Shown here: piece after piece, positions 25,499 to 43,181 of the stretch | Layout of the letters: every line of letters begins with the position of its first letter | Numbering within the stretch: the first letter of the stretch is position 1 | Assembly (NCBI GenBank): GCA_902562875.1 | Contig: CACEVB010000006.1 | Location: 1-64,000, forward strand | Direction: 5' to 3' | DNA: 64,000 nucleotides | From: an uncultured Pelagibacteraceae bacterium | GTDB taxonomy: Bacteria > Pseudomonadota > Alphaproteobacteria > Pelagibacterales > Pelagibacteraceae | The notes under the pieces: model-generated | Databases searched by the model: none | Seen by the model: only the letters and a program-made list of their open reading frames with translations | What the model was told of the DNA's origin: nothing | Made by a program: the position numbers and the translations under genes

Positions 25499-25507
25499 TT
25501 GAATTAA

Positions 25508-26605: not shown

Positions 26606-26678
26606 AGCAGTAAATTATAATATATTTTTAACATATTTGGATCTTTTTTTGGTCAAATTTTAAGTTAATATTATTTGT

Positions 26679-26795
26679 ATGATTGATTTAATACTAAACA
26701 AAATTTTTAATAAAAGACTAAAATCTAACCTTGACGCAAAATATTGGATTCAGGTTGCTTTATTAAAAGAAAATTTTACTAATTTTAAAAATTAG
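26679..26795 (+). CDS. Possible small protein, 38 aa, unknown
   Basis: An ATG-started frame of 38 codons lying in the gap between the divergent dioxygenase start and the thiolase stop; it overlaps the thiolase 3' end by 4 bp. The product starts MIDLILNKIFNKRLKS and includes DAKYWIQVALLKENF, an amphipathic helix-like composition. No ribosome binding site is visible, so this may be chance; it is included because it fills the gap almost exactly. Confidence 0.35.
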   Translation: MIDLILNKIFNKRLKSNLDAKYWIQVALLKENFTNFKN

Positions 26796-27904
26796 TCTGT
26801 TTCTAAGCACATTGCTATTCCCATACCACCACCTATACAAAGTGTTCCGAGTCCTCTTTTTGCTTCTCTTTTGAGCATTTCATGCAATAAAGTAACTATT
26901 ATTCTAGAACCGGATGCTCCAATCGGGTGACCCAATGCTATAGCACCTCCATTTACGTTAACTATTTCTTTTGGAATTTTTAATTCCTTAATTACCGCTA
27001 AGCTTTGAGCAGCAAATGCCTCATTTGACTCAACTAAATCTAGCTGATCAATGCTCCATGATGCCCTCTGAAGTGCCTTTTTTGTAGAGGGGATTGGGCC
27101 AGAACCCATTAAAGATGGATCTACGCCACAGGTGGCCCAAGAAACTATTTTTGCTAAAGGCATTAAATTTCTTTTATCTGCCTCTTCTCTTGACATAAGT
27201 ATGACTCCAGCTGCACCATCATTAATTCCTGATGAATTTCCAGCAGTCACTGTTCCTTTTTCTTTAAAAACTGTTTTTAATGACAATAAGCTATTTAAAG
27301 TAACATCAGGTCTTGGATGTTCATCTTTTTCAATCAAATTATTAATTAATTCATTCTTAAATTTGTTACCTTTTAATGCATTTTGAGTTTTGATCTGAGA
27401 TTCATAGGCAAATTGGTCTTGCTCCTCTCTAGTTATATTCCATTTATCTGCAACGTTTTCAGCTGTCACACCCATATGATATTTATTATAAACATCTATT
27501 AAGCCATCTTTTAACATTACTTCCTTTTCACAATTTGTCATGCTTTCTTGTCCACCAGCAATCACAATTTTAGTTTCTTTTGATAATATAGAGTTATATC
27601 CAGCAGCAATGCTCCTAAGTCCTGAACCACAAACTTGATTAATTAAATATGCAGTTGTTTTATTTGGAATGCCAGCATTTAAAGAGGCTTGTCTAGCAGG
27701 ATTTTGACCTGTATTACCTGTCAGTACTTGCCCCATAATCACTTCATCAACATTCTCTGGTGGTATTTTAGATTGATCCAATAAATTTTTAATGACTTTA
27801 CAACCTAGGTCATGTGCTTGATATGAGCTTAATTTTCCTTTGTATTTGCCAATTGGCGTCCTTAAAGCGTTAGTTATTACTATATCATTTAAATTTTTTC
27901 CCAT
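26792..27904 (-). CDS. Acetyl-CoA C-acetyltransferase (thiolase), shortened loop
   Basis: Thiolase II that interconverts acetoacetyl-CoA and two acetyl-CoA. Acyl-accepting Cys92 lies in NQVCGSGLRS, His326 in ALGHPIGASGSR and the second Cys356 in GTLCIGGGMG; NEAFAAQ is also present. At 370 aa it is about 20 residues shorter than usual: between GGQESM and KDGLIDVYN only about 10 residues replace the usual 26, and a second short gap precedes DEHPRPD. The active site is intact. With acetoacetyl-CoA synthetase nearby it suggests acetoacetate use. It is divergent from tRNA-Arg. Confidence 0.9.
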   Translation of the reverse strand: MGKNLNDIVITNALRTPIGKYKGKLSSYQAHDLGCKVIKNLLDQSKIPPENVDEVIMGQVLTGNTGQNPARQASLNAGIPNKTTAYLINQVCGSGLRSIAAGYNSILSKETKIVIAGGQESMTNCEKEVMLKDGLIDVYNKYHMGVTAENVADKWNITREEQDQFAYESQIKTQNALKGNKFKNELINNLIEKDEHPRPDVTLNSLLSLKTVFKEKGTVTAGNSSGINDGAAGVILMSREEADKRNLMPLAKIVSWATCGVDPSLMGSGPIPSTKKALQRASWSIDQLDLVESNEAFAAQSLAVIKELKIPKEIVNVNGGAIALGHPIGASGSRIIVTLLHEMLKREAKRGLGTLCIGGGMGIAMCLETD

Positions 27905-27969
27905 AAAAATACATTAATTGCTAATTTAATAAATTACATTAAAAATATAAAAAATAGTATTATATAATT

Positions 27970-28046
27970 GCGCCTGTAGCTCAATTGGATAGAGCGCTTG
28001 GCTACGGACCAGGAGGTTCTGGGTTCGACTCCTAGCAGGCGCGCCA
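27970..28046 (+). tRNA. tRNA-Arg(ACG), CCA encoded
   Basis: The acceptor stem is GCGCCTG/CAGGCGC with discriminator G and encoded CCA (28044-28046). The D-arm is GCTCAATTGGATAGAGC. The anticodon stem CTTGG/CCAGG has one G-U pair and loop CTACGGA, giving anticodon ACG, expected to be deaminated to ICG by TadA. The T-arm has GGTTCGACTCC. A small membrane-protein frame starts 11 nt after the CCA. Confidence 0.96.
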
Positions 28047-28057
28047 AGAAAGGAAAT

Positions 28058-28141
28058 ATGAAAATATCTCTACAATCATCTGTGATATATTTTTTTATAA
28101 TTATTGGAATAATATTATTTTTGATAACATTACTAATATAA
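28058..28141 (+). CDS. Small single-pass membrane protein, 27 aa
   Basis: The frame starts MKISLQSSVIYFFIIIG and is one continuous hydrophobic helix after a short polar start. A ribosome binding site (AAGAAAGGA) lies 4-12 nt before the ATG, immediately after the tRNA-Arg CCA end. The stop overlaps the next ATG (TAATG), so translation is probably coupled to the thioesterase. No family recognised. Confidence 0.6.
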   Translation: MKISLQSSVIYFFIIIGIILFLITLLI

Positions 28142-28548
28142 TGAAAAAATTTGAGAACATAAGTACAAAACCTGGATTTATGAAACATAATGGTGGTTTA
28201 ATGTTTCGAGAAGTTACCAAAAATAGATATCAGTTTAAAACCAATGTAAAAAAAATCCACTTAAATAGAGCAGGAATTACGCATGGAGGTTTTTTGGCGG
28301 GAATAATTGATGCGGGTTCAGGCACAGCAGTGCATAGAGCTGCTGGCAAACAAGTATGTGTAACCATTTCATTAGATATTAAGTTTATTGGCTCAAGTGG
28401 GATTGGAAATAAGATAATCGGCGATGTAGAGATACAAAAAGTTACTAACTCTTTAGTATTTATGAGATGTAAATTATCATGTAAGAAAAAAATTATAGCT
28501 ATTGGGACTGGAGTTTGGAAAAAAACTAAAAAATCTTTTATTCATTAA
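28141..28548 (+). CDS. PaaI-like hotdog-fold thioesterase
   Basis: A 135-aa single hotdog domain. The helix motif NRAGITHGGFLAGIIDAGSGTA (centred near residue 50) matches the HGG-x-D active-site pattern of the PaaI/4HBT group, and VTISLDIKFIG follows as the central strand. It hydrolyses a small acyl-CoA; the substrate is unknown. It is held by TAATG overlaps between two tiny membrane-protein genes, and the neighbouring acetoacetyl-CoA synthetase and thiolase point to acyl-CoA metabolism. Confidence 0.85.
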   Translation: MKKFENISTKPGFMKHNGGLMFREVTKNRYQFKTNVKKIHLNRAGITHGGFLAGIIDAGSGTAVHRAAGKQVCVTISLDIKFIGSSGIGNKIIGDVEIQKVTNSLVFMRCKLSCKKKIIAIGTGVWKKTKKSFIH

Positions 28549-28649
28549 TGAAAAAAAAAATTAAATATCTTTTGTATTTTTTATTGTATTTAGTAATAAT
28601 TTTGGTCATGGCTATATATTTCTATAAAAATGGTATTAGTTTAATTTAA
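28548..28649 (+). CDS. Small single-pass membrane protein, 33 aa
   Basis: The ATG overlaps the thioesterase stop (TAATG). The product starts MKKKIKYLLYFLLYLV, a Lys-rich start followed by a hydrophobic helix of about 20 residues and a short polar tail (YKNGISLI). The Lys-rich side should face the cytoplasm. It is convergent with the acetoacetyl-CoA synthetase gene, whose stop is 14 bp away. No family recognised. Confidence 0.55.
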   Translation: MKKKIKYLLYFLLYLVIILVMAIYFYKNGISLI

Positions 28650-28663
28650 TAAAAACTCTAGTT

Positions 28664-30619
28664 TCAAGATTTTAATTCATTAATATTTTTATATTCATCA
28701 AGATCTTTAGGATTTGTCAAAGCATGTAAATTATTAATTTTATTTCCCTCTATTATATTTTTAACAGCTAGTTCAACAATTTTGCCATTTTTAGTTTTTG
28801 GTATATTACTTACTTGAATAATTTTTTCTGGTACGTGTCTTGGTGAGGCATATTTACGTATTTTTGATTTTATTAAACTTTTTAACTCATTATTCAAAAT
28901 ACAATTCTTTTTTAATACTACAAATAGTACTATTCTAATATCATTGTTCCAAGATTGACCGATTGCTAAGCTCTCAATTATTTCTGAAAATTTTTCAACA
29001 ATTGAATAAATTTCTGCGGTACCCAGTCTTACGCCACCAGGATTTAAAGTCGCATCTGATCTGCCATAAATTCGAAAACTATTTTTATTTGTTTTTTTTG
29101 CAAAATCTCCATGAAACCAAACTCCTTTAAATTTATTAAAATATGCTGATCTAAACTTAATATTTTTTTTATCGTTCCAAAATTTTATTGGCACTGATGG
29201 AAAAGAGTTTCTACATACCAATTCTCCTTTTTTATTTTTTATTGACTTTCCTCTATCATTTAATACATCAACATCCATACCTAGACCACAGTTTTGAATT
29301 TCCCCTTTTATAACCGGCTCATAAACGTTACCCAAAACAAAACAGGATACAATATCTGTGCCTCCCGATATAGAGGCTAAATGAACATCAGACTTGATTT
29401 TTTTGTAAACAAACTCAAAACTTTCATCAGAGAGAGGTGAGCCAGTTGAGCAGATTGTTTTTAGATTGGTTAACTTATACCTAGATTTTATGTTTACTTT
29501 AGACTTATTCAGCGTATCAAGATATTTAGCACTCACACCAAATAAAGTAATTTTTTCTTTTTCTGCTAATTCAAAAAGTAAATCTTTTTTTTTGAACATT
29601 GGAAAACCATCAAATAAAACTATAGATGCTTTAGAAGCTAAAACACTTACCAACCAATTCCACATCATCCATCCACAAGTGGTAAAATAAAATACGTTAT
29701 CACCTGGTTTAATATCGCAATGTAATTGATGTTCTTTAATATGTTGTATTAACACACCACCGCTCCTATGACAAATACATTTTGGTTTACCAGTTGTACC
29801 ACTTGAGTACAGGATGGCTAATTTATGATCAAAATTAAATTTTCTAAATTTTATATTTGATGAAGTAAATTTTTCTAAGTTTTTTTTGTTAAATATTAAA
29901 ACGTTTTTAAATTTTCGAATTTTTAAAGATTTTTTTCCTGGATAATTTATTACAACTACTGTTTTAATAGTTTTTACTTTTTTTAATATTTCAGGAAGCC
30001 TATTTAATAAATTTATTTCTTTACCATTATAATAATATCTATCAGCAATTATTAAAATTTTCGGTTTTATTTGAGAAAATCTTTCTATTACACCATTAAC
30101 ACCAAAATCTGGAGAACATGAAGACCATACAGCACCTATCGTTACTGATGCTATGAAAAACTCTACAGTTTCAATAATATTTGGTAGATAGCCAACAACC
30201 CTATCACCCTTGTTTATTGAATTTTTTTTCAAAAAGCTCGCAAATTTAATAGTTGAATTATGTAATTCTTTCCATGATTTTTCTTTTCTAAATCCATTTT
30301 CACTTATAAAAGTAATTGCTTTGGTGTTATCTTTTTTTGAAAGCAAGTTTTGTCCAAAATTTAATTTAGAATTAACCAAAAACTGGCTTTTATAAATTTC
30401 TCTATAAATTTTACAATTTTTTTTTTTTATTCCTTTAATTTTTGCATACTCCCATACTGAGTTCCAAAATAATCTTGGATTTTGAATACTCCATTTATGA
30501 ATTTTATAAAAATTATTTTGAATTTTTAAATTATAATTATTTTGCAAATAAATTTCGTATTTATTTAAATTAGAGTTTTCTTTTATTTTTTTTGTTGGTT
30601 TCCACAAAATTGTTTTCAT
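28664..30619 (-). CDS. aacS: Acetoacetyl-CoA synthetase
   Basis: An ANL-superfamily ligase of 651 aa that activates acetoacetate with ATP and CoA. The N-terminal extension (about 1-100) contains HKWSIQNPRLFWNSVWEYA, characteristic of acetoacetate-CoA ligases. The P-loop is LYSSGTTGKPK (about 265-275), followed by YFTTCGWMMWNW. The core motif has WFHGDFAKK, and PKTKNGKIVE provides the catalytic Lys. With the thiolase at 26792-27904 it would convert acetoacetate to acetyl-CoA. It is convergent with the thioesterase cluster. Confidence 0.92.
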   Translation of the reverse strand: MKTILWKPTKKIKENSNLNKYEIYLQNNYNLKIQNNFYKIHKWSIQNPRLFWNSVWEYAKIKGIKKKNCKIYREIYKSQFLVNSKLNFGQNLLSKKDNTKAITFISENGFRKEKSWKELHNSTIKFASFLKKNSINKGDRVVGYLPNIIETVEFFIASVTIGAVWSSCSPDFGVNGVIERFSQIKPKILIIADRYYYNGKEINLLNRLPEILKKVKTIKTVVVINYPGKKSLKIRKFKNVLIFNKKNLEKFTSSNIKFRKFNFDHKLAILYSSGTTGKPKCICHRSGGVLIQHIKEHQLHCDIKPGDNVFYFTTCGWMMWNWLVSVLASKASIVLFDGFPMFKKKDLLFELAEKEKITLFGVSAKYLDTLNKSKVNIKSRYKLTNLKTICSTGSPLSDESFEFVYKKIKSDVHLASISGGTDIVSCFVLGNVYEPVIKGEIQNCGLGMDVDVLNDRGKSIKNKKGELVCRNSFPSVPIKFWNDKKNIKFRSAYFNKFKGVWFHGDFAKKTNKNSFRIYGRSDATLNPGGVRLGTAEIYSIVEKFSEIIESLAIGQSWNNDIRIVLFVVLKKNCILNNELKSLIKSKIRKYASPRHVPEKIIQVSNIPKTKNGKIVELAVKNIIEGNKINNLHALTNPKDLDEYKNINELKS

Positions 30620-30691
30620 AATTTGTTATATTGAATTTTTAAATTTTATGTTATGTTGAAATTTTAAAATTTAAAATGAGAACTTTTTTTT

Positions 30692-30704
30692 GTCCGATTC
30701 GGAC
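30692..30704. promoter_or_regulatory. Perfect 13-nt palindrome GTCCGATTCGGAC upstream of the helicase operon
   Basis: Two 6-nt arms (GTCCGA and TCGGAC) around one central base lie in the 162-bp gap between the divergent acetoacetyl-CoA synthetase and helicase genes, 77 bp before the helicase ATG. The one-base centre is too small for an RNA hairpin loop, so a dimeric protein operator is more likely than a terminator. It is much richer in G and C than its surroundings. The binding protein is unknown. Confidence 0.45.
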
Positions 30705-30781
30705 TATTTTTATACTATATTTGTTCTTTTTGAGTAACAAGATATAGTTGTCTTAAAAAAAGATACACAAAAAGTTGGAAA

Positions 30782-33253
30782 ATGAAAAATAAAATAACTG
30801 CTGTTTTAGGACCTACAAATACAGGTAAAACATTTCTCGCTATTGAGACAATGTTATCTTTTGAAAGTGGAATGATAGGATTTCCACTTAGACTTCTAGC
30901 AAGAGAAGTTTACGACAAAATAATAAAAAAAATTGATCCACAAAAAGTTGCCTTGATTACAGGAGAAGAAAAAATAATTCCAGCAAATGCAAAGTATTAT
31001 CTATGTACTGTAGAGTCTATGCCTGTAGATAAATTTTTAGACTTTGTTGGTATTGATGAAATTCAGATGTGCTATGATCACGAAAGGGGGCATATATTTA
31101 CTGATAGGCTTTTAAACCTTAGAGGTGAAAAACTAACTATGTTTATGGGTTCAAATACAATTAGAAATATAATTTCAAATCTAGACGAGGATATCGAATT
31201 TATAAATAAAGATAGATTATCAAAGTTAACTTATAGTGGTTACAAAAAAATTTCTAGAATTGAGAGAAAAAGTGCAATAATTGCATTTTCGTCTGAAGAA
31301 GTTTATGCAATTGCTGAGTTGCTCAGGAGACAAAAAGGAGGGGCAGCTATAGTTATGGGATCTTTAAGTCCTAAAACTAGAAATTCTCAAGTTAATTTAT
31401 ATCAGTCAGGAGATGTTGATTATTTAGTGGCCACTGATGCTATTGGGATGGGAATAAACATGGACTTAGATAATGTATATTTTTCAAATTTAAAAAAATT
31501 TGATGGAAAAAAATTAAGAAGGCTCAGTCTTGCTGAACTTGGTCAAATTTCAGGTAGGGCTGGTAGGCATATAAATGATGGTTACTTTGGTACAACTGGT
31601 GACTGTAAAGATTTGAGTTCTGAGGAAATAGAACTTTTGGAAGGACATAAGTTTGAGGAAATAAAAACAATTTTCTGGAGAAACTCAAATTTAAATTTTG
31701 AAAGTTTAAACAAATTACTCCTTTCTTTAGAGGAAAGGCCAAAAAAAGATTGGTTAAGAAGAATTCATGAATGCGAAGATGAGAAAGTTCTTAAATATAT
31801 TATCAAAAGTAACAATTTTGATAAAAATCTTAATTTAAGAGAAATTAAAATTTTGTGGGAGTGTTGTCAAATACCTGATTTTGTAAAGAAAACCTACGGA
31901 CACCACCTAGATGTGGTTCAGAAAGTATTTTCGTTTCTTAGGAGCAAAGATAGTCGTGTATCTAATAGTTATATGAAAGAACAGTTATCTAGTTTAGATA
32001 AATTAGATGGCAATGTTGACTCTTTATCAAATAGAATTGCTAACGTTAGAACATGGTCGTACGTATCAAATAAATCTAATTGGGTTGATAACCAAGACTA
32101 TTGGATAGAAAGGACAAAATATTTAGAAGATCAGCTTTCTGATAGACTTCATGAGGAATTAACCAAAAGTTTTATTGACAGAAGAGCAAGTGTGCTTGCT
32201 AGAGGGTTAAAACAAGATATTATTCTCAAGACAAAAATAGAAAAAAACGAAACAGTTATGATAAATGAGCAGTTTATTGGTAAATTGAAGGGTTTAAAAT
32301 TAGATCTTGATTTAAAAATTGGAGCTTTAGATACTGACGTAAAGTCACTTAAGAAAGCGGCTAGGCAAAATGTTACTCCTGAGATTTTAAAGAGAATTAA
32401 TCTAATTATTGGTGGTTCTCCTTTACATTTATCTAACGACTTTAAGATTTATTGGGAAAAAAACCCCATTGCAAAAATTAAACCTGGGAAAGATTATTTA
32501 AGTCCCGAGATAGATTTAATAATAGATGACATGGTTGAATTCTTTGATCAAAAGAAACTATTAAATTATTTAGAAATCTGGTTGAGAAATAAAATTTCTA
32601 ACGATTTAGACTCTTTATTTAAGTTGAAGTCTATTAAAATTAGCAATTCTAATATTAGAGCTTTATCATATCAATTATATGAAAATAATGGTGTTATAAA
32701 AAGAGATAAAGTCACTAATATCGTAAAAGTTTTAAATCAAGATGAAAGAAAAGTTTTAAGAGATATTGGGGTTAAATTTGGTAGATATCATATTTTTCTT
32801 TACAAGTTATTCAAACCTGGGGCGGTGTCTTTAAGAGTACTACTTTGGAAAAATTTTTATCAAAAATACTATAATTTAAACCCTCCTAAATTTGGTCTTA
32901 ATTTTTTAGAGGAGGATAAATTTAAAAACCAAGATTTTATGCTTTTATGTGGTTTTGAGAAATTTGATAGGTTTTTTGTGAGAATTGACATTTTAGAAAG
33001 ACTGTTTATTCATATAATAAAATTAAATATTGAAAACAAAAAAGAAATCAAAGTAATACCTCAAATGCTAAATTTATTAGGTTGCAACAAAGAAAGCTTT
33101 ATAAAATTGGTAAAATTAATGGGCTATCAAGCATTTAGCAAGGAAAATGAAACTTACATTAAATATATTCCAAAAAAGAGTTTTAAAAAAAGGAAAAGCA
33201 AAACTACATTTGATAATCCTTTTAATATTTTAAATCAATTAAATATAAAATAA
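30782..33253 (+). CDS. SUV3-like superfamily 2 RNA helicase
   Basis: An 823-aa helicase. Walker A is GPTNTGKT (10-17), motif II DEIQMC near residue 91, motif III-like MGSNT, and motifs V/VI LVATDAIGMGINMDL and GQISGRAGRH. The DEIQ motif and the sequence after the core match alphaproteobacterial relatives of the mitochondrial RNA helicase SUV3 rather than DEAD-box proteins. The C-terminal half is long and Lys-rich near the end (KKSFKKRKSK). A role in RNA turnover is inferred from mitochondrial SUV3. Its stop overlaps the next start (TAATG). Confidence 0.88.
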   Translation: MKNKITAVLGPTNTGKTFLAIETMLSFESGMIGFPLRLLAREVYDKIIKKIDPQKVALITGEEKIIPANAKYYLCTVESMPVDKFLDFVGIDEIQMCYDHERGHIFTDRLLNLRGEKLTMFMGSNTIRNIISNLDEDIEFINKDRLSKLTYSGYKKISRIERKSAIIAFSSEEVYAIAELLRRQKGGAAIVMGSLSPKTRNSQVNLYQSGDVDYLVATDAIGMGINMDLDNVYFSNLKKFDGKKLRRLSLAELGQISGRAGRHINDGYFGTTGDCKDLSSEEIELLEGHKFEEIKTIFWRNSNLNFESLNKLLLSLEERPKKDWLRRIHECEDEKVLKYIIKSNNFDKNLNLREIKILWECCQIPDFVKKTYGHHLDVVQKVFSFLRSKDSRVSNSYMKEQLSSLDKLDGNVDSLSNRIANVRTWSYVSNKSNWVDNQDYWIERTKYLEDQLSDRLHEELTKSFIDRRASVLARGLKQDIILKTKIEKNETVMINEQFIGKLKGLKLDLDLKIGALDTDVKSLKKAARQNVTPEILKRINLIIGGSPLHLSNDFKIYWEKNPIAKIKPGKDYLSPEIDLIIDDMVEFFDQKKLLNYLEIWLRNKISNDLDSLFKLKSIKISNSNIRALSYQLYENNGVIKRDKVTNIVKVLNQDERKVLRDIGVKFGRYHIFLYKLFKPGAVSLRVLLWKNFYQKYYNLNPPKFGLNFLEEDKFKNQDFMLLCGFEKFDRFFVRIDILERLFIHIIKLNIENKKEIKVIPQMLNLLGCNKESFIKLVKLMGYQAFSKENETYIKYIPKKSFKKRKSKTTFDNPFNILNQLNIK

Positions 33254-33672
33254 TGCTAAATTTTTTAAAAAAAAAAAATGTAATTTCTCAAGAAAATGAA
33301 GGATCTTTAGTAGAGATTGCTTGTCTATTGATACACGCATCAAAGATTGATGAACATTATTCAATAGATGAAAAAAATATAATTACAAAAGTACTAATTA
33401 AGTTTGGTGCTAACGAAAAAGAAATAGAGAATATTTTAAAAAAAGCTGAAGATATAGAAAAAAATTCAAACCAAATATTAGACTTTACACGTAAAATTAA
33501 AGATGTTGATAAAGATAAAAAATTACTAATTGTCAAATCATTATGGGAAATAATATACTCTGATGACAAATCAGATATGTTTGAGGCAAATCTAATGAGA
33601 AGACTGACTGGATTACTTTATTTAGATCCAAAAGAAGTGGGTGATTTAAAAGAGGAAGTTAAAAATAAGTAA
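33253..33672 (+). CDS. TerB-like family protein
   Basis: A 139-residue all-helical protein. [20 protein letters not shown] (about 18-37) and [28 protein letters not shown] match the pattern of the TerB/DjlA-N domain family: repeated helices with acidic residues near D-x-Y-S and SDD that could bind metal. It is coupled to the helicase by TAATG and lies 4 bp before the ferredoxin. Specific function unknown; the link to tellurite resistance in the family name should not be taken literally. Confidence 0.75.
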
Positions 33673-33676
33673 TCAT

Positions 33677-34000
33677 ATGACTTATATTGTAAATGATAAA
33701 TGTATTAAATGTAAGTTGATGGATTGTGTTGAAGTTTGCCCTGTAGATTGTTTTTATGAGGGAAAAAATATGCTTGTAATTAAACCTGATGAGTGTATAG
33801 ATTGTGGCGTTTGTGAACCTGAGTGTCCAATAGGCGCAATAGAACCAGATACAAATGATGGTACAGATAAATGGTTGGAGATAAACAAAAAATATTCAGA
33901 AATGTGGCCGAATATAACTGTAAAAAAAGAAAGTCCTTACGGACAGGAACTTAAAGATGAAAAAGATAAATTTGAAAAATATTTTAAAGAAAACATTTAA
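33677..34000 (+). CDS. fdxA: Ferredoxin FdxA, seven-iron type
   Basis: A 107-aa ferredoxin. The first cluster region is [21 protein letters not shown], with the spacing typical of a 3Fe-4S plus 4Fe-4S ferredoxin, and the second is [16 protein letters not shown]. The C-terminal extension has [16 protein letters not shown], standard for alphaproteobacterial FdxA. Soluble electron carrier. Its last 44 bp are overlapped in another frame by carD, matching the fdxA-carD neighbourhood common in alphaproteobacteria. Confidence 0.95.
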
Positions 34001-34817
34001 AAAAAAAAAAGATAAAGTAAAAAAACCAACCAAAAAAATAAAATTAAAAAAAAAAGAAACTAAAAAAAGCAAGAAAATTGAAAAAATTAAATTAAAAACG
34101 GATAAAATTAAAAAGAAAGAAATTAAGAAAGATAAAATTTTAAAAACTAAATCCAATGAAATCAATAATAGCAATTTAAGACTAACAAAAACTGCTGCTG
34201 ATCAAAAACCTGAAATAAAAAAAATTAAAAAACAATCTACAGAAAAAAGAGAATTTAAAATAAAAGATTACGTTGTCTATCCAAAACATGGTGTAGGTCA
34301 AATTACAGAATTTAAGAAAATTAATATCGGTGGGATTGATGTAGAAACCTACATCTTAAAATTTGAAAAAGATAAAGCAAGCGGAATGATACCAGTAAAT
34401 AAGCAAACTAATCTTAGACCCTTAGCATCTATAAACCAAGTAAATAAGTGTATGAGTATATTAAAAGGTAAGCCTAAAATTAAACGATCGATGTGGAGTA
34501 GGAGAGCTCAGGAATATGAAGCAAAAATTTCCTCTGGAAAAATTTATGATTTAGCTGAAGTTGTAAGAGATTTGAATAAAGGAGAAGATTTGATGATTGA
34601 CCAATCTTATAGTGAAAGACAATTATTTGAGAAAGCTTACGAGAGAATTCTAACTGAATTTCAAATAATACTTGGAATTGGACATGAAAACACTCAAAAA
34701 AAACTTGATAAAGCTTTAAAAAGAAATTTAGAAAGTCAGGTCGCTAAAACAGAGGTCGTAAGACCAAAACCTGATGAAGTTAAAGAGGACGATCCAATTT
34801 CAGATAATCCAGTATAA
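33957..34817 (+). CDS. CarD/CdnL-family transcription regulator with a Lys-rich N-terminal extension
   Basis: The CarD RNA-polymerase-interacting domain begins near residue 98 ([21 protein letters not shown]) and is followed by the helical DNA-binding part ([35 protein letters not shown]). CarD proteins stabilise open complexes at sigma-70 promoters, notably at rRNA genes. The first 65 residues hold 34 lysines, a low-complexity tail absent from typical CarD proteins of about 170 aa. The start inside fdxA is supported by AGGA 8 nt upstream of the ATG. The short C-terminus is acidic ([10 protein letters not shown]). Confidence 0.88.
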
Positions 34818-34855
34818 AAAAAAACGCTTCTCACGCAATCGCCATGAGAAGCGTT
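34816..34855 (-). terminator. Rho-independent terminator for the 23-aa basic peptide gene
   Basis: A perfect 11-bp inverted repeat (AACGCTTCTCA at 34823-34833, TGAGAAGCGTT at 34845-34855) with an 11-nt loop. On the minus strand it is followed at once by nine T (34824-34816 complement), the classical intrinsic terminator form. On the plus strand the hairpin follows the carD stop closely but lacks a strong T run, so it probably ends carD transcripts less efficiently or protects their 3' end. Confidence 0.85.
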
Positions 34856-34880
34856 ATTTACTAAGAAAAAGAATACTAAA

Positions 34881-34952
34881 CTATCTTCTTCTTTTTTTTT
34901 TAGCTTTTTTAGCTTTCTTTTTCTTTTTAGCTTTTTTTCTTCTTTTAGCCAT
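34881..34952 (-). CDS. Tiny Lys/Arg/Ala-rich basic protein, 23 aa
   Basis: ATG 34952 to TAG 34881. The product starts MAKRRKKAKKKKKAKK and ends in three Arg; 18 of 23 residues are Lys or Arg and the rest apart from Met are Ala. A strong ribosome binding site (GGGAG) lies about 6 nt before the ATG. It has its own promoter (35002-35030), a 5' hairpin (34973-34991) and a terminator (34816-34855), so it is a complete one-gene transcription unit. The composition recalls histone H1-like tails or very small ribosomal proteins; the family is not recognised. Nucleic-acid binding is an inference. Confidence 0.7.
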   Translation of the reverse strand: MAKRRKKAKKKKKAKKAKKKRRR

Positions 34953-34972
34953 TTTTAGCTCCCTTTTTTTTT

Positions 34973-34991
34973 ACGAATCATTTTGATTCGT
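34973..34991 (-). promoter_or_regulatory. 5' leader hairpin of the basic peptide mRNA
   Basis: Inverted repeat ACGAATCA / TGATTCGT (8 bp) with a 3-nt loop, placed between the predicted -10 element and the ribosome binding site. With the promoter at 35002-35030 the transcript would start within a few nucleotides of the stem, giving a 5'-terminal stem-loop of the kind that stabilises bacterial mRNAs. A protein operator is the alternative. Confidence 0.55.
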
Positions 34992-35001
34992 ATTTAAGTA
35001 A

Positions 35002-35030
35002 TTTTTATTTTTTTTAATTAGTTATGTCAA
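35002..35030 (-). promoter_or_regulatory. Sigma-70 type promoter of the basic peptide gene
   Basis: On the minus strand, a perfect -35 TTGACA (35030-35025), a 17-nt spacer, then TAAAAA (35007-35002) as -10. It points at the 23-aa gene 50 nt downstream. The consensus -35 stands out in this AT-rich background; the -10 is less perfect. Confidence 0.6.
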
Positions 35031-35132
35031 TTCTTTAATTGTTTGAAAAAACTTAACAGAAATAAAAAAATTATAATTTTTAGTAAAATTAAAAAAAGTA
35101 AGATAAAATGCGAATAATAAACAATTTTTTTT

Positions 35133-36842
35133 TTATTTTAAGTAAAGTTTTTCAAATAAATTTTTATATTTGTGTATAATTTTAAATCTTTTTAACTTTA
35201 AAGTAGGTGTTAACATTCCATTTTCAATTGAAAACTTTTCATCAATTATAAAATATTTTTTTATTTTTTCTATTTTTGATAAATTTTCATTTATTTTTTT
35301 TATTTCATTTGCTATTTCTTCATTTGTTGAATTTATTTTTTCATGCGCCTTTATTAATAAAGCAACTAAAAAAGGTTTATTATCTCCATAAACTACCGCT
35401 TGATCGAAAAATTCAGAATTTGTTATTTCATTTTCAACTTTCATTGGACTTATGTTATCGCCACCTGGTGTAATTAAAATATCTTTTTTTCTGTCGGTAA
35501 TTCTTAAGTAATCATTTTCGAAAATTCCAATATCTCCTGTGTGTAGCCAACCGTCAATTAAAACTTTATTTGTTTCCTCGGGTTTGTTCCAATATCCTAA
35601 CATTACATTTTCACCTTTAACTAAAATTTCTCCATCTTCTGCAATTTTAACCTCATTTCCAGGAAATGGGGGTCCCACAGTTTCAACCCTTATATCTTGT
35701 ATAGGATTACAACTCACCACTGGTGATGTTTCTGTTAAACCATACCCTTGCAAGGTTGGTAAACCTATAGCATTTAAAAAATAACCAACTTCTTTGTTAA
35801 GAGCCCCTCCGCCAGATACGAAAGTTTTTAAAGATCCACCAAACTGTTTCTTGATTTTTCGTCTTACTATCATATCTAGAAATTTGTCTTGTAAACTCTC
35901 AAAAAAACTTAGTTTATTTTTTTTAATTTTCTTTAGTCCTAAATTTATGGTTTTTTGAATTAAAAATTTTTTAATACCATTATTTTTTTTAAAATTTGAA
36001 TTTATTTTTTGATAGAGATTTTGATAAAATCTTGGAACAGCTGTCATAATATCTGGACTGCAGTCACTCATATTTTTTATTAATTTTTCTATACTTTCAG
36101 CATAAAATATTTTTGCCTCAACTGTGATTTGCACAAATTGAACGGTATGCTCATATGAGTGTGACAAAGGAAGCCATGTAAGAAATTTTGTAGTTTTTTT
36201 TTCTATAAGGGGTTTTAATAATTGAATAGCTCCCTCACAATTATTTAATATTCCTCCATGACTAAGCATAACACCTTTGGGATTACCTTGTGTTCCTGAA
36301 GTATAAATAATACACGCAACATCCTTTCTTTTAAGATCAGAGAACTGTGTATATTCATCATTATTATTTGTAATCAATTTATTTATATTAATATAATCTA
36401 AATCTTTTATTTCGTTTAAATTTTCAAAAGAAAATATTTTTTTAATAAATTGCTTATTGTGAATAATATTCTCAATTTTTTTAAATTGATCTTTATTAGA
36501 AACAATAACAACTGTAGGTTTGCAATCACTTATTATATATTCGTAATCTTTTTCTGTATAAGTTGTGTATACAGGTACTGTTATCCCCTCAGAAAACATT
36601 ATTGCTAAATCAGATATAAACCACTCAGGTCTATTTTCAGATATTATCAAACATCTATCACCTTTTTTTATATATTTCTTTAACTGTTTAGAAAACAAAA
36701 CAATAAAATTAAATGTTTCTGACCAGGTAAATGTTTTTTGGGGCTCTTTTAAAGAAGTTAAAAAAACTTTATTTTTATCTTCTTGATTTTGAAACTTTTC
36801 AAAAAATAATTGAACAAGATTATTTACTTTATTTAATTTCAT
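35133..36842 (-). CDS. Long-chain fatty acid-CoA ligase (AMP-forming)
   Basis: An ANL-superfamily enzyme, 569 aa from ATG 36842 (MKLNKVNNLVQLF). The P-loop is IIYTSGTQGNPKG (about 180), then LPLSHSYEH, and GYGLTETSP (adenylate-binding), GWLHTGDIG and RKKDILITPGGDNISP (hinge). The pattern is that of long-chain acyl-CoA synthetases of the FadD15/FAA1 type. An upstream in-frame extension is only a translation of the tRNA-Leu gene and was excluded. The start is 6 nt after the tRNA-Leu CCA end, so no ribosome binding site lies outside the tRNA. Confidence 0.9.
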   Translation of the reverse strand: MKLNKVNNLVQLFFEKFQNQEDKNKVFLTSLKEPQKTFTWSETFNFIVLFSKQLKKYIKKGDRCLIISENRPEWFISDLAIMFSEGITVPVYTTYTEKDYEYIISDCKPTVVIVSNKDQFKKIENIIHNKQFIKKIFSFENLNEIKDLDYININKLITNNNDEYTQFSDLKRKDVACIIYTSGTQGNPKGVMLSHGGILNNCEGAIQLLKPLIEKKTTKFLTWLPLSHSYEHTVQFVQITVEAKIFYAESIEKLIKNMSDCSPDIMTAVPRFYQNLYQKINSNFKKNNGIKKFLIQKTINLGLKKIKKNKLSFFESLQDKFLDMIVRRKIKKQFGGSLKTFVSGGGALNKEVGYFLNAIGLPTLQGYGLTETSPVVSCNPIQDIRVETVGPPFPGNEVKIAEDGEILVKGENVMLGYWNKPEETNKVLIDGWLHTGDIGIFENDYLRITDRKKDILITPGGDNISPMKVENEITNSEFFDQAVVYGDNKPFLVALLIKAHEKINSTNEEIANEIKKINENLSKIEKIKKYFIIDEKFSIENGMLTPTLKLKRFKIIHKYKNLFEKLYLK

Positions 36843-36848
36843 AAAAAC

Positions 36849-36935
36849 TGGTGGGCAAAGAGAGAATCGAACTCTCACAGTATTTCTACTATTGGATTTT
36901 GAGTCCAACGCGTCTACCAGTTCCGCCATTCGCCC
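36849..36935 (-). tRNA. tRNA-Leu(CAA), CCA encoded
   Basis: A class II tRNA. The acceptor is GGGCGAA/TTTGCCC (one G-U pair) with discriminator A and encoded CCA at 36849-36851. The anticodon stem TTGGA/TCCAA has loop CTCAAAA, giving CAA for UUG codons. There is a long variable arm and GTTCGATTC in the T-loop. The acyl-CoA ligase starts 6 nt downstream on the same strand. Confidence 0.95.
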
Positions 36936-37000
36936 GATTTAAAAAACTTCTCAAAATCAATATTAATAGTATAAGAAGTGTAATTATAATAAAAGCAAAT

Positions 37001-37609
37001 ATGTTAAAAAAATTGTATCAAACAACTATAAAACTCGCTGGGCACAAAAGTTCGAAATCAATACTTGGGTTTATTTCATTTATTGAAAGTTTTATTTTTC
37101 CTATTCCGCCTGATGTTCTTATAATACCTATGACTATTGCAAAGAAAAATGATTGGTTTAAAATTGGTTTGACGGCAACTATTGGCTCTATATTAGGAGC
37201 ATTGCTTGGTTATTTTATTGGGTATATTTTTTTTAATGAAATTGGTGTAAAAATTTTTGAACTATATGGAGTTGATAATGTATCATTTTTAAAAGATAAA
37301 GTTTCTAGTGAAGGAGGAATAATTGCATGGATGACACTGCTTGCTATAGCTGGTTTTACTCCTGTACCTTTTAAATTATTAACCATAACAAGTGGATTTG
37401 TAAACTTTAATATTTTTTACTTCTTGATCGTGGCAACAATAACAAGAGGATCAAGATTTTTCCTAATATCATTTTTAATAGGAAATTTTGGACCAACTAT
37501 GAAAAAAATTATTCAGAAAAAGTTAACATCTGTATCTTTAATTTTAGCATTTTCTTTAATTATTATTGGGTATTTAGTATACGATTTTTTAATAAATTTT
37601 AGTGATTGA
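37001..37609 (+). CDS. DedA/YqaA-family membrane protein
   Basis: A 202-aa membrane protein of the VTT/SNARE-associated family. GFISFIESFIFPIPPDVLIIPM (about 22-43) carries the family E-x-x-x-P-x-P core, then GSILGALLGYFIGY, TPVPFKLLTITSGF and the Arg-containing ATITRGSRFFLI. DedA proteins are undecaprenyl-phosphate or lipid scramblases. The ATG at 37001 is chosen because earlier in-frame codons merely cross the antisense of tRNA-Leu. The stop overlaps the dsbB ATG (TGATG). Confidence 0.85.
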   Translation: MLKKLYQTTIKLAGHKSSKSILGFISFIESFIFPIPPDVLIIPMTIAKKNDWFKIGLTATIGSILGALLGYFIGYIFFNEIGVKIFELYGVDNVSFLKDKVSSEGGIIAWMTLLAIAGFTPVPFKLLTITSGFVNFNIFYFLIVATITRGSRFFLISFLIGNFGPTMKKIIQKKLTSVSLILAFSLIIIGYLVYDFLINFSD

Positions 37610-38085
37610 TGTATTTAATAGGAAATAGAAATTATTATTTTTTGAGTGTATTTTTGATAAGTTTATTATCTTTATTAACCGCTCTTTACATAGAATTTAT
37701 AGTTGGCTTCAAGCCTTGTAGTCTTTGCTTATACCAAAGATTACCTTACTTAGCTGCAATTTTTATATCTTTTCTAGGTTATTTTTATGATAAACAATTG
37801 TTATGGGTTTATTTGTCTCTAGCTATTTTTATACTTAGTTCAATTATTTCTGGTTTTCATGTAGGTGTTGAAAATGGTATTTTTGAAGAATTAAAAAATT
37901 GTAAGAATAACTTAGGAATTTTAAATAAAGAGGACTTATTAAACTCTTTAAAAAATCAAAATATATCTTGTAAAGATGTTCCTTTAAGATTTTTAGGATT
38001 ATCACTTGCGACTTTAAATCTTATCCTTTCATTGACTGTAAGCGTGTTAACAATTATTCATATAAAGTATGCAAAAAACAGATAA
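37609..38085 (+). CDS. dsbB: Disulfide bond formation protein DsbB
   Basis: A 158-aa membrane thiol oxidase with four hydrophobic helices that passes electrons from DsbA to ubiquinone. The first periplasmic pair is CSLC in FKPCSLCLYQRLPY; the second loop has NCKNNLG and SCKDVP cysteines. ATG 37609 overlaps the DedA stop; a TTG one codon earlier is also possible. It overlaps coq7 by 17 bp, placing quinone-linked enzymes together. No dsbA is in the window. Confidence 0.9.
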   Translation: MYLIGNRNYYFLSVFLISLLSLLTALYIEFIVGFKPCSLCLYQRLPYLAAIFISFLGYFYDKQLLWVYLSLAIFILSSIISGFHVGVENGIFEELKNCKNNLGILNKEDLLNSLKNQNISCKDVPLRFLGLSLATLNLILSLTVSVLTIIHIKYAKNR

Positions 38086-38602
38086 AACTAAATTAGAAGA
38101 ATTTATTAGAGTTGATCATGCCGGGGAGAGAGGTGCAATTAAAATTTATGAGGGACAATTATTAGCACTAAATACTATTTTAAAAGATGAAAGCTTAAAA
38201 GAGACTATTTTAGAGATGAGAGAGCACGAAAGAGAACATTGTGAGTTTTTTGAAAACGAAATAAAAAAAAGAAATATTAAGCCAACAAAATTTCTTCCAT
38301 TATGGGACCTTTTAGGAGTAGGTCTAGGTTTTGGTACAACAATTTTGGGAAAAAAAGCTGCAATGTTGTGTACAGCTTCTGTTGAAGAAGTGATTGATAA
38401 GCACTATCAAGATCAAATAAATCAATTAAAGGATGACGAAAAGGAATTAAAAAAAAAAATAATAAAATTTAGAGAAGATGAACTTCATCATAAAGATATT
38501 GCATATGAGAAGGGGGCCTCAAAAAAAGGAGTGTATTCGATACTTGATAAAATAATTAAAACAGGATCGAAAATTGCAATTAATATATCTGAAAAAATAT
38601 AA
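38069..38602 (+). CDS. coq7: 5-demethoxyubiquinol hydroxylase, Coq7 type
   Basis: A di-iron monooxygenase in ubiquinone synthesis, 177 aa. The ferritin-like four-helix bundle has iron ligands in VDHAGERGAIKIYEG, EHEREHCEFFE, ASVEEVIDKHY and REDELHHKDIA, matching the E-ExxH-E-ExxH pattern. Alphaproteobacteria and mitochondria use Coq7 where E. coli uses UbiF. ubiE and ubiB lie at 47910-50182. It is convergent with and abutting the HNH gene (38603). Confidence 0.95.
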   Translation: MQKTDKTKLEEFIRVDHAGERGAIKIYEGQLLALNTILKDESLKETILEMREHEREHCEFFENEIKKRNIKPTKFLPLWDLLGVGLGFGTTILGKKAAMLCTASVEEVIDKHYQDQINQLKDDEKELKKKIIKFREDELHHKDIAYEKGASKKGVYSILDKIIKTGSKIAINISEKI

Positions 38603-39172
38603 TTAAGGTTCTAATTCAACATCCCAGTATAAATAGTCCATCCAACTTTTATGTAGAAAATTAGGTGGAAAGTTTTTTCCATTCTTATGAAGGTCTTCAG
38701 TACTTGGCCTATATGGTTTTTGATTTAATACCATGCCTGAATTTTCAAATAATCTTCCTCCCTTTTTAACATTACAACTTGAACAAGCTGTTACCACATT
38801 GTCCCAATCAGTTTTTCCTCCTTTTGATCTAGGGAGTAGATGATCAAAGGTTAATTCTTTACCACTACCACAATATTGACATAAGAATTTATCTCTTAAA
38901 AAAACATTAAATCTTGTAAAATTTGGATTTGAAAGCGGTCTAACAAATGATTTTAGAGCAATTACACTTGGAAGTTTCATACTGAATGAGGGACTTCTTA
39001 TTGCTCTGTCATAATAACTAACAATAGAGACCCTATTTAAAAAAACAGATTTTATAGAATCTTGCCAACACCAAAGCGATAACGGATAATAACTCAAGGG
39101 TCTATAATCAGCATTAAGCACTAAAGCAGGACACTTTTCTAAAGAAAGTTTAGTATCAATTGTATTATTCAT
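38603..39172 (-). CDS. HNH endonuclease family protein
   Basis: A 189-aa protein. The N-terminal part (CPALVLNADYRPLSYYPLSL) is typical of a family found widely in alphaproteobacteria and cyanobacteria. The HNH domain has zinc cysteines CQYC and CSSCN, with the catalytic LTFDHLLPRSKGG between them and the WDNVV helix. It is a free-standing gene with no methylase or phage neighbour, so it is probably a housekeeping nuclease rather than a mobile element part. Function unproven. Confidence 0.88.
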   Translation of the reverse strand: MNNTIDTKLSLEKCPALVLNADYRPLSYYPLSLWCWQDSIKSVFLNRVSIVSYYDRAIRSPSFSMKLPSVIALKSFVRPLSNPNFTRFNVFLRDKFLCQYCGSGKELTFDHLLPRSKGGKTDWDNVVTACSSCNVKKGGRLFENSGMVLNQKPYRPSTEDLHKNGKNFPPNFLHKSWMDYLYWDVELEP

Positions 39173-39240
39173 AATTTAGATTAACCTATTAAAAATTATT
39201 TTTCAATGGAACAAATAGTAAAGCAATTGATTAAATATTT

Positions 39241-39897
39241 TTAATTAAAATTGGATTTAATAAATTGTAATGCTAAGCTTGAAGCTTCTAGCGGTATAGT
39301 ATGTTCAGTATTTTTAATCATTTTTGTAATAACATGTACTTTTTGTCTTAAAAGAAAATCTTTGGTCTCAAGCAAGTTATTGGGTGGGACAATAGTATCC
39401 ATATCTCCATGAAGTAACAAAAATTTTGGTTTTGTTTTTATCCTATTTTCAAGATTTTTTTTATTTATAATTTTACCTGAAAAACCTACTACACAGTTAT
39501 ATTCCGTATTTGAAACTAAACCTAAGTTTATTGACATCATACAGCCTTGACTAAATCCACAAAGACATATTTGATTATTACTTAAATTAAACTCTTTTTT
39601 AATCTCACTCACAAACTCATTGAGTATTCTTTCACTCTTTAATGAATGGTCTAAAATATAACTTTCTTCTTCTGTTGAAAGGTCAAACCATTGATAGCCA
39701 TTTGGGTTTATGCTACAAACTTCATGTCCGTTTGGACATATAAAAACTGTATTGGTTAAATGTCTTTTCCAATTATATGCTAACATACTTATATCTTTAC
39801 CGTCACCGCCATATCCATGTAGCAATAAAATAGCATTTTTAATCTCAGCATTTTTTTCTGGTTTAATTATAATGCTATCTAGTCTAAACTTTTTCAT
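39241..39897 (-). CDS. Phospholipase/carboxylesterase family serine esterase
   Basis: A 218-aa alpha/beta hydrolase of the carboxylesterase family (YpfH-like). ILLLHGYGGDGKD (about 22-34) forms the oxyanion region, Ser sits in CGFSQGCMM, Asp in HGDMDTIVP and His in NTEHTIP. There is no signal peptide, so it is cytoplasmic. It lies 6 bp after the TlpA gene on the same strand. The substrate is unknown. Confidence 0.85.
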   Translation of the reverse strand: MKKFRLDSIIIKPEKNAEIKNAILLLHGYGGDGKDISMLAYNWKRHLTNTVFICPNGHEVCSINPNGYQWFDLSTEEESYILDHSLKSERILNEFVSEIKKEFNLSNNQICLCGFSQGCMMSINLGLVSNTEYNCVVGFSGKIINKKNLENRIKTKPKFLLLHGDMDTIVPPNNLLETKDFLLRQKVHVITKMIKNTEHTIPLEASSLALQFIKSNFN

Positions 39898-39903
39898 AAT
39901 TTT

Positions 39904-40434
39904 TTAATCAAATTTTTTTAACCAACTTATAAATTTCTTATTGTCAAAATCTGCTGAACCTATAACTCTCCCTAGTTCATCACCTTCTTTGTTAATAATA
40001 ATAGAGGTAGGCACGCCTCTTAACATAAGTTTTTTTGGTAACTGCAGTGTATCATCATAATAAATATTCAAATTTTTGATATTAACTTCTTTAAAAAATT
40101 CTTTTGATTTTAGTAAATCTTCTCGACCAATATTAATAGGTATTACATAAAGATTTTTGAAATCCTTCCTTGCTTTCAATCTATCTAAAGACGGCATTTC
40201 TTCTCTACATGGGGCACACCATGTTGCCCAGAAATTCAATATAACTAATTTATTTTTATATTTTGACAATGTTAATAATTTATTATTAACGTTTTTAAAC
40301 TCTATAAAATCGAGTTTTTTAGCTTTTTTATGTATTACTAAATTCTTAAAAGCAGGCTGTTCTATTGCATATGTATAAGTTGGTGATATTAAATATGATA
40401 CTAAAATAATAACTTTAAAAAAAAATAATCTCAT
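39904..40434 (-). CDS. TlpA-family thiol-disulfide oxidoreductase
   Basis: A 176-aa exported protein. The signal peptide is MRLFFFKVIILVSYLISPTYTYA. The thioredoxin fold has ILNFWATWCAPCREEMPSL with Cys73 and Cys76 and the cis-Pro in RGVPTSIIIN. It is a periplasmic reductant, often for cytochrome c maturation or copper delivery. It is divergent from argH with only 18 bp between the starts; in alphaproteobacteria tlpA beside argH is a recurring arrangement. Confidence 0.9.
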   Translation of the reverse strand: MRLFFFKVIILVSYLISPTYTYAIEQPAFKNLVIHKKAKKLDFIEFKNVNNKLLTLSKYKNKLVILNFWATWCAPCREEMPSLDRLKARKDFKNLYVIPINIGREDLLKSKEFFKEVNIKNLNIYYDDTLQLPKKLMLRGVPTSIIINKEGDELGRVIGSADFDNKKFISWLKKFD

Positions 40435-40452
40435 ATAGGCTAAACATTTAAC

Positions 40453-41847
40453 ATGACAAAAAATAAAAACAATCAGTCAGTTTGGTCGTCTAGAATAAAA
40501 AAAAATAAAAGTACTCTTTTTGAAAAGATAGGATCATCTATAAATATAGATAAAAGATTGTATAAAGAGGACATTAATTGTTCACTGACACATGTAGATA
40601 TGCTTTTTAGACAAAAAATAATTTCATTTAAAGTTAAAAATAAAATTTTTTTTGGTTTAAACAAAATTAAAAATGAGATTACAAAAAAAAAATTTATCTT
40701 TAAAAATAGAGATGAGGATATACATATGAGTATCGAAAGAAGACTTCATGAGATAATTGGAGATGATGCTGGTTTTATTCATTCTGGTAGATCAAGAAAT
40801 GATCAAGTTGTAACAGATTTAAAAGTTTGGATGAAAGAATCTACAAATCAGATAATTAGTTATTTAAGGTCTAATCAAAAAACCATATTGCAATTATCTG
40901 AAAAAAATATTTATACTATTATGCCTGGTTTTACTCATTTAAAAAATGCACAACCAATTTCTTTATGTCATTATCTTCTTGCATACATAGAAATATTTGA
41001 AAGAGATAAAAAAAGATTTGAATATAATCTTAAAAATTTAAATGAAAATCCTTTAGGCGTGGCTGCACTAAGTGGAACTAGTTTTAATATAGATAGAAAT
41101 TACACTACAAAAAAACTGAACTTCTCAAAACCAACAAATAATTCAATAGATACGGTATCTGATAGAGATTTTGTTGTAGATTTTATTTACGCATCGTCTA
41201 TGTGTTCAATGCATATTTCAAGACTATCTGAGGAATTAATAATTTGGAACTCAGATGGTTTCAAATTAGTAAAACTCAACGACAGAATTGTAACCGGCTC
41301 ATCAATCATGCCACAAAAAAAAAACCCTGATCCATTAGAATATCTAAGAGGACAAACAGGAATATTTTATGGTAATTTAGTTTCGATGTTAACAATATTA
41401 AAAGGTCTTCCTTTAAGTTATTTTAAAGATCTTCAAGATGACAAAAAATTAATTTTTGAAACATTCGATAATCTTAAAAATTGTTTATTACTTACAAACG
41501 AAGTCTTAAAAAATATTATTTTCAATAAAAAAAATATGTTGGAACTAGCAGAAAAAGGTTTTTTAACAGCTACCGACTTGGCAGATTATATTGTTAAAAA
41601 ACATAACTACCCATTTAGAAAATCGTATAATTTGACAGCAAAAATTGTAAATTTCTGCGAAAAAAATAATAAATCATTTAAAGATTTAAAAATTAATGAA
41701 ATAAAAAAAATTGATTCACAATTAGAGAATGATATTTTAAAAGTATTCGATTTAAACAACTCTATAAGTTCAAAAAAATCGTTTGGTGGAACATCTTTTG
41801 ATAATATAAAAAAAATGATAAAAAAGTATAAAAAGGAATTGAGATGA
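40453..41847 (+). CDS. argH: Argininosuccinate lyase
   Basis: Last step of arginine synthesis: cleaves argininosuccinate to arginine and fumarate. It has 464 aa. HSGRSRNDQVVTDLKVWM (about 111-128) and the family signature GSSIMPQKKNPDPLEYLRG (about 281) with catalytic Ser are present, and the start W-S-S-R-I-K matches the family. It ends in an ATGA overlap with the small lipoprotein gene, then lysA. Confidence 0.97.
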   Translation: MTKNKNNQSVWSSRIKKNKSTLFEKIGSSINIDKRLYKEDINCSLTHVDMLFRQKIISFKVKNKIFFGLNKIKNEITKKKFIFKNRDEDIHMSIERRLHEIIGDDAGFIHSGRSRNDQVVTDLKVWMKESTNQIISYLRSNQKTILQLSEKNIYTIMPGFTHLKNAQPISLCHYLLAYIEIFERDKKRFEYNLKNLNENPLGVAALSGTSFNIDRNYTTKKLNFSKPTNNSIDTVSDRDFVVDFIYASSMCSMHISRLSEELIIWNSDGFKLVKLNDRIVTGSSIMPQKKNPDPLEYLRGQTGIFYGNLVSMLTILKGLPLSYFKDLQDDKKLIFETFDNLKNCLLLTNEVLKNIIFNKKNMLELAEKGFLTATDLADYIVKKHNYPFRKSYNLTAKIVNFCEKNNKSFKDLKINEIKKIDSQLENDILKVFDLNNSISSKKSFGGTSFDNIKKMIKKYKKELR

Positions 41848-41960
41848 AAGTATTAGTAATAATATTTATTATTTTTAATCTATTGGTATCATGTGGAAAA
41901 AAAGGTGATCCTGAATTTAAAAGTGAATTTATTAAACAGAATTATACTAAAAAAATTTAA
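41844..41960 (+). CDS. LptM-like small lipoprotein (38 aa)
   Basis: The product starts MKVLVIIFIIFNLLVS, followed by lipobox Cys17 in LVSCGKKGDPEF, a type II signal peptide leaving a mature peptide of about 22 residues. The CGKKGDP start resembles the LptM/YifL family, which assists maturation of the LptD outer-membrane translocon. Its place between argH and lysA, with a 4-bp overlap (ATGA) and a TAATG overlap, is the usual position of that family in proteobacteria. Confidence 0.82.
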   Translation: MKVLVIIFIIFNLLVSCGKKGDPEFKSEFIKQNYTKKI

Positions 41961-43174: not shown

Positions 43175-43181
43175 TAAATAA

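Follow-up and report, generated by a model that had tools for sequence, protein, structure and literature searches.

The minus strand beside carD in this 64,000-nucleotide stretch of Pelagibacteraceae DNA (the window) carries, within positions 34816–35030, what appears to be a complete transcription unit for a peptide of 23 residues. The locus raises two questions, namely whether so short a frame is a real gene and, if it is, what its nearly pure Lys/Arg/Ala product would do in a member of SAR11, by one account the ocean's most abundant bacterial order (PMC7542561). The original prediction, made from this one sequence, held that the full set of expression signals argued for a real, strongly expressed gene whose product may coat DNA or RNA, or be a tiny ribosomal protein. 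It proposed looking for the same unit beside carD in related SAR11 genomes, and took loss of the frame with retention of the hairpins as the sign of a small RNA.

The unit in the window and its neighbours

The signals of the unit were read from the minus strand, and the -35 and -10 boxes, stem-loop, GGGAG, 24-codon frame and 11-bp terminator were all present as first described. The -35 box TTGACA (35025–35030), which is conserved upstream of the gene in the family, is separated by a 17-nt spacer from a presumed -10 box, TAAAAA (35002–35007), a weak match agreeing with TATAAT at four of six positions. The 5' leader contains a hairpin, ACGAATCA-AAA-TGATTCGT (34973–34991), whose 8–9 bp stem contains two GANTC sites. 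The ribosome-binding site GGGAG (34959–34963) lies within GGGAGCTAAAA-ATG, and the coding frame (34881–34952, ATG at 34952) comprises 24 codons including the stop. The encoded peptide, MAKRRKKAKKKKKAKKAKKKRRR, has Lys or Arg at 18 of its 23 residues, shows KKA units and contains no Pro; no other ATG frame in the 64 kb reaches both 15 aa and 60% Lys+Arg. The unit closes with an intrinsic terminator, AACGCTTCTCA-N11-TGAGAAGCGTT (34816–34855), which has a perfect 11-bp stem and a T9 end and stands between the peptide gene and the convergent carD gene (33957–34817, plus strand; Pfam domains CarD_TRCF_RID and CarD_C). By its predicted signals, the unit is transcribed alone from a sigma-70-like promoter and closed by its own terminator, and the same signals suggest that the peptide gene would be strongly expressed.

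The weight of these signals was gauged against shuffled sequence over positions 25001–45000. The terminator had the longest stem among the seven terminator-like sites of this region (shuffle mean, 5.6). Promoter-like sites were not commoner than chance in this AT-rich DNA (130, compared with 123.7 in the shuffles), so that the promoter alone proves nothing, the signals of a single genome are insufficient and comparison between genomes must decide. Of the argument from full signalling, the conclusion that the gene is real was upheld by the conservation described below, whereas the promoter match did not serve as proof.

Two features of the neighbouring genes were also seen. The CarD protein of this genome has a Lys-rich N-terminal extension of about 95 residues before the RID domain (33957–34250), and in a sister family of the order CarD likewise begins with a Lys-rich stretch. 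On the other side of the unit, an acyl-CoA-ligase-like frame (35133–36929) takes its first codons from a same-strand tRNA (36852–36935). Its apparent start, MAELVDALDSKS..., is thus translated tRNA, and the protein probably begins downstream, at the Met of MKLNKVNN.

Conservation of the frame, the leader hairpin and the terminator

Loci containing carD were collected from across the Pelagibacteraceae. A CarD match was present in 162 of 197 family genomes, from which 30 loci were kept as a first set, and a second set of 70 loci was taken from Pelagibacteraceae contigs. Of these 100 loci, 99 contained a short unit rich in Lys and Arg, and the other (L069) stops 89 bp past carD. More genera were then added through pattern matches and direct retrieval. 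Of the family loci gathered, 161 had carD and 153 of those had at least 230 bp downstream, and a convergent frame of at least 50% Lys+Arg was present beside carD in 152 of the 153. The unit proposed for SAR11 relatives was therefore found almost throughout. The sole exception (L131, from the draft genome G006) had, by eye, the same sequence except that an A-run is one base longer, which breaks the frame and changes where it ends; the additional A could stem from misassembly or be a genuine mutation. The loci are not all independent, as some genomes gave more than one and two of them (L036 and L037) lie on one contig, and distinct units numbered 151 among 166. In contig 6 of G030 and CACBTT010000011.1 (L036/L037), carD and the peptide unit occur twice on one contig in mirror image, probably because draft assembly produced an artificial palindrome.

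The elements of the unit were well preserved. The upstream sequence was TTGACA in 135 of the 144 distinct family units with a full leader and TTGACT in the remaining nine, and GGAG occurred within 20 nt before the start in 150 of the 151 distinct units. The start, an Ala or Pro second codon and an [RK]RKKA core were mostly kept across units, with the N-terminus M[AP]K[RK]RKKA and the Arg-rich C-terminus well kept. Arg codons swapped among AGA, CGA and CGT between units. Over codons 2–9 of 32 distinct strings, with all pairs pooled, the synonymous difference per site was 0.44 and the nonsynonymous difference 0.21, giving an only moderate ratio of 0.48. By inspection, the nonsynonymous changes were mainly Lys/Arg and Ala/Pro, together with Lys/Ala at codons 7–9. 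Length differences between the peptides were multiples of three nucleotides. Homopolymer-rich DNA without selection is expected to lose its frame fast.

Given that the frame is kept together with its start and stop, and that synonymous change is greater than nonsynonymous change, the unit in the window is, on this comparison of sequences, a real protein-coding gene and not a chance frame. The claim of a real, self-contained gene was thus borne out, with frame, promoter, leader and terminator all conserved across the family.

The same comparison bears on the possibility that the transcript is a functional small RNA, with the frame incidental or serving only to stabilise it. The leader hairpin and the terminator are both conserved, and the 5' arm of each stem is nearly invariant, as such an RNA would have it. 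Yet the frame was not lost while the hairpins persisted: the start, the GGAG and the stop are conserved, the frame is kept through length changes in 152 of 153 loci, synonymous change is the greater, and a long protein is encoded at the same place in the sister family. A non-coding RNA was ruled out by the frame, start, stop and synonymous-change evidence, and a small-RNA function with the frame as a bystander is very unlikely.

The two hairpins were compared in 161 units, 152 from the family and nine from the sister family, three leaders being too short to score. CGAATC was present in all 158 scored leaders of both families, beginning 37–42 nt after the start of TTGAC in the 153 leaders measured. 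The hairpin window was more stable than its shuffles (z below -1) in 157 of the 158, with z above -1 in the other. The right arm of the hairpin read GATTC in 125 leaders, GATTTG, with G-U pairing, in 13 and a different sequence in 20. In these 20, which belong to genera g5, g7, g9 and g12, the stem was rebuilt from other bases, with z values of -3.4 to -8.0. Since the stems are rebuilt while the left arm is invariant, the leader seems to be constrained in its pairing and, on the left arm, in its sequence as well.

The leader hairpin was also considered as a shared regulon signal and rejected, as the pattern CGAATCA-gap-GATTCG was found only at the peptide unit in all six same-genus genomes searched. 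The pattern had no match in the one sister-family genome searched, where the right arm is without the final G. In the predicted folds of g7, g9, g12 and the sister family (leaders L115–L129 and L173–L182), the ribosome-site region was wholly or partly paired with upstream pyrimidines. Such modelled pairing hints that translation is controlled in the sister family and in some of the genera; it was not seen in the genus of the window.

A terminator, defined as a stem of at least 6 bp with a T-run, was present in all 161 units, with a left arm resembling ACGC[CT][CT]. Within the genus, the hairpin (34823–34855 in the window) combines a near-invariant left arm, ACGCYY..., with a right arm that varies through G-U wobble, which is not the behaviour of an ordinary terminator. 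Runs of Lys and Arg codons followed by a terminator hairpin could also describe an attenuator, in which a leader peptide senses Lys/Arg charging by ribosome stalling before the terminator. Against this, that strand continues into the antisense of carD, the terminator is retained in every unit, and the long form of the sister family is unlike a leader peptide, so that attenuation is scarcely credible here.

A longer counterpart in the sister family

The start pattern of the short form had no match in 53 sister-family genomes. This pattern search missed the sister family because the protein start differs there, and the counterpart was then found by way of carD. Twelve sister-family genomes were queried and yielded ten carD loci, of which one (L177) ends too early. 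In all nine loci with room, a convergent frame of 76–99 aa lay beside carD in the same place and orientation. Its product consists of KKAAPKK-type repeats rich in Lys, Ala and Pro, such as MEELKVIFAKARKKAKKKAAPKKKRKAAKRKPAKKK..., and its N-terminal AKARKKAKKK resembles, by eye, the MAKRRKKAKK of the short form. The gene stands behind the same leader, with TTGAC followed after about 40 nt by CGAATC and the hairpin.

Genus g12 contained forms of 34–58 aa, with Pro in five of five and KPAAKK in two of five, and on these sequences the g12 forms bridge the short SAR11 peptides and the long sister-family ones. In a CarD tree of 51 rows, g5, g7, g9 and g12 (peptides of 20–58 aa) formed one clade with a fork support of only 81/24, and g1, g2, g3, g4, g6, g8 and g13 (19–35 aa) another with a support of 93/88. 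Based on place, leader and N-terminal likeness judged by eye rather than by statistical alignment, the short and long forms are probably orthologous. The simplest reading is that the short form arose by reduction from a longer H1-like form; the alternative would be an independent expansion.

Beyond the order, no convergent carD-adjacent counterpart was found in 28 outgroup loci, retained from the 113 genomes of the class that lie outside the family and gave a CarD match. In a looser scan of the same loci, the only Lys-rich frame, in L195, overlapped the start of the carD match. A class-wide pattern search matched three of 142 genomes, two of them belonging to the Pelagibacteraceae. The third match, in another alphaproteobacterium (G400, locus L183, 1513–1567), was a MAKKQKKAAKPAKKASKK... 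frame behind GGAG that lies away from carD and runs off the contig end. This frame may be another H1-like protein, and such proteins may thus exist elsewhere in the class. A second pattern match in G051 (L155) was an unrelated longer frame. Carriage by phages was considered and rejected: one 34-base pattern fitted to the genus of the window had no exact match in viral contigs, and phage records gave five partial matches at chance level (best E 0.2), none covering 80%.

Nature of the peptide

The 70 distinct family peptides scored, one of which (L119) includes unread residues, were 19–58 aa long with 60–83% Lys+Arg. Asp and Glu were absent from all 70, and each carried a charge of +15 to +35. 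Any of Phe, Trp, Tyr, Ile, Leu, Val, Met or Cys after Met1 was found in only two of the 70. Three further loci stand outside this set, namely L131, L141, whose peptide has 86% Lys+Arg, and L146, which appears to use a start codon other than ATG. The peptide is thus nearly pure Lys/Arg/Ala.

Profile searches with five forms (23, 27, 36, 58 and 85 aa) gave no Pfam match other than a chance match of the 85-aa form (E 8.5), and no NCBIfam match. No PDB chain was returned for the peptide of the window at E values up to 10; all of these searches are weak for low-complexity 23-mers. Among the titles and abstract beginnings listed from an open-access library, none named such a gene, the one paper matching the peptide motif concerned an antimicrobial peptide, and no paper joined histone H1-like proteins with Pelagibacter. 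In GenBank the gene may well be listed as a hypothetical protein.

The reading we favour, at a probability of roughly 0.63, is that the SAR11 gene is coding and that its peptide is a streamlined counterpart of the histone-H1-like (AlgP/Hc2-like) protein of the sister family, most likely binding DNA or structured RNA. Of the two products originally suggested, a coat for DNA or RNA is preferred, since an H1-like repeat protein holds the corresponding place in the sister family. Having no acidic residue and a net charge of +15 or more, the peptide would bind the phosphate backbone of DNA, or of structured RNA, with no sequence preference. Probably unstructured or helical, it would act as H1-like tails do, neutralising or compacting nucleic acid alongside proteins of the HU/IHF type. 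Its own genome encodes three such proteins, so the peptide would be an accessory to them. Nucleic-acid binding is likely on this composition.

The sister-family form resembles an H1 or AlgP tail standing alone. The tails of AlgP and PhaF and the chlamydial proteins Hc1 and Hc2 are similar in their Lys/Ala(/Pro) repeats, strong positive charge and drift in length. DNA binding in vitro is reported for KPAA-repeat peptides of AlgP (PMC9239181), and the size of Chlamydia Hc2 varies by lysine-rich pentamers (PMC2848022), which resembles the drift in length within the SAR11 family. Compared with all four proteins, the SAR11 forms are mostly 19–38 aa, richer in Arg, nearly without Pro and without a folded domain; they carry a separate promoter and terminator and match no model in Pfam or NCBIfam. 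Judged by composition and repeats, on which the term H1-like rests and which low-complexity convergence could also produce, the SAR11 gene can be classed as a minimal stand-alone variant of the H1-like kind.

The other product suggested at the outset, a tiny ribosomal protein, would be a short basic helix in rRNA like bL37 or like eL41/bS22, which occupies the h27/h44/h45 pocket and forms an extra inter-subunit bridge. The complete set of expression signals and the well-kept termini of the peptide suit such a protein, and bS22, eL41, mS38 and bL37 are likewise very short and highly basic. A peptide of the bS22/eL41 type would be expected to have a near-constant length, set by one rRNA pocket, and lengths of 19–58 aa in the family and 76–99 aa in the sister family are hard to reconcile with a single such site. 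The size range is that of bS22 (33 aa in C. acnes), and bS22 and eL41 are described as short helices with 55–65% positively charged residues that hold a fixed rRNA site (PMC10085706). However, the same account describes a large percentage of hydrophobic residues in bS22 (PMC10085706), and the SAR11 peptides have almost none. The PDB search, weak as it is for such a sequence, also gave no match. Given the variable length and the near absence of hydrophobic residues, the ribosomal reading was weakened and is retained at lower weight, as rather unlikely.

The peptide might instead bind another polyanion, such as polyphosphate or RNA condensates, or work with the transcription machinery as a partner of CarD. 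AlgP, with its KPAA-repeat tail, associates with polyphosphate granules (PMC9239181). A partnership would suit the constant adjacency to carD in two families and the Lys-rich N-terminal extension of CarD itself. However, this adjacency is convergent and not operonic, and the carD-adjacent counterpart was absent from all 28 outgroup loci; both roles are quite improbable beside the H1-like reading.

GANTC sites and the meaning of the gene

GAATC is a site of the methylase CcrM (GANTC), and both arms of the leader hairpin in the window contain GANTC. The genome of the window encodes GcrA, whose Pfam model scored over its cut-off, and a methylase with N6_N4_Mtase and RAMA domains, whose best NCBIfam match was CcrM at 567 bits, below the model cut-off of 830. 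A survey lists a CcrM homologue for SAR11 and describes GANTC as scarcer than expected in alphaproteobacterial genomes and enriched between genes (PMC3973325). In agreement with this depletion, 102 GANTC sites were found in the window compared with 169 expected from shuffles, two of them being the pair in this leader. The left GAATC was kept in all 158 scored leaders, and the right GANTC was absent in 33.

SAR11 could couple synthesis of the H1-like peptide to replication, with CcrM methylating and GcrA reading the GANTC of the leader, so that passage of the fork would give one burst per cell cycle; this proposal is speculative and decidedly doubtful. In Caulobacter, GANTC within 50 bp upstream of start sites is tied to cell-cycle timing (PMC4287350), whereas the sites in this leader sit a short way past the predicted start. 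A role in the RNA fits the preserved pairing, and the position of the hairpin at the 5' end of the transcript, at least as well as control through GANTC does. Structured RNA motifs reported in Pelagibacter, including rpsB, ffh, rpsL, SAM-V and others, are likewise conserved leader hairpins before genes in the same organisms (PMC2704228). In the main text of that report carD is absent, and its Table 1 lists neither carD nor the adjoining acyl-CoA ligase, although some rows read only 'hyp. protein' and may include the locus (PMC2704228). If the coupling were true, the unit would parallel, in a bacterium, the replication-dependent histone genes, and its mRNA would carry a conserved 5' hairpin of its own.

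The gene has some 20 codons in streamlined genomes, yet it was kept in 152 of 153 loci. It is easily overlooked and would mark a family-wide gap in the family libraries. If H1-like, the peptide would, in our judgement, rank among the smallest chromatin-type proteins, and the natural series of lengths from 99 down to 19 aa would bear on how little of an H1-like tail suffices.
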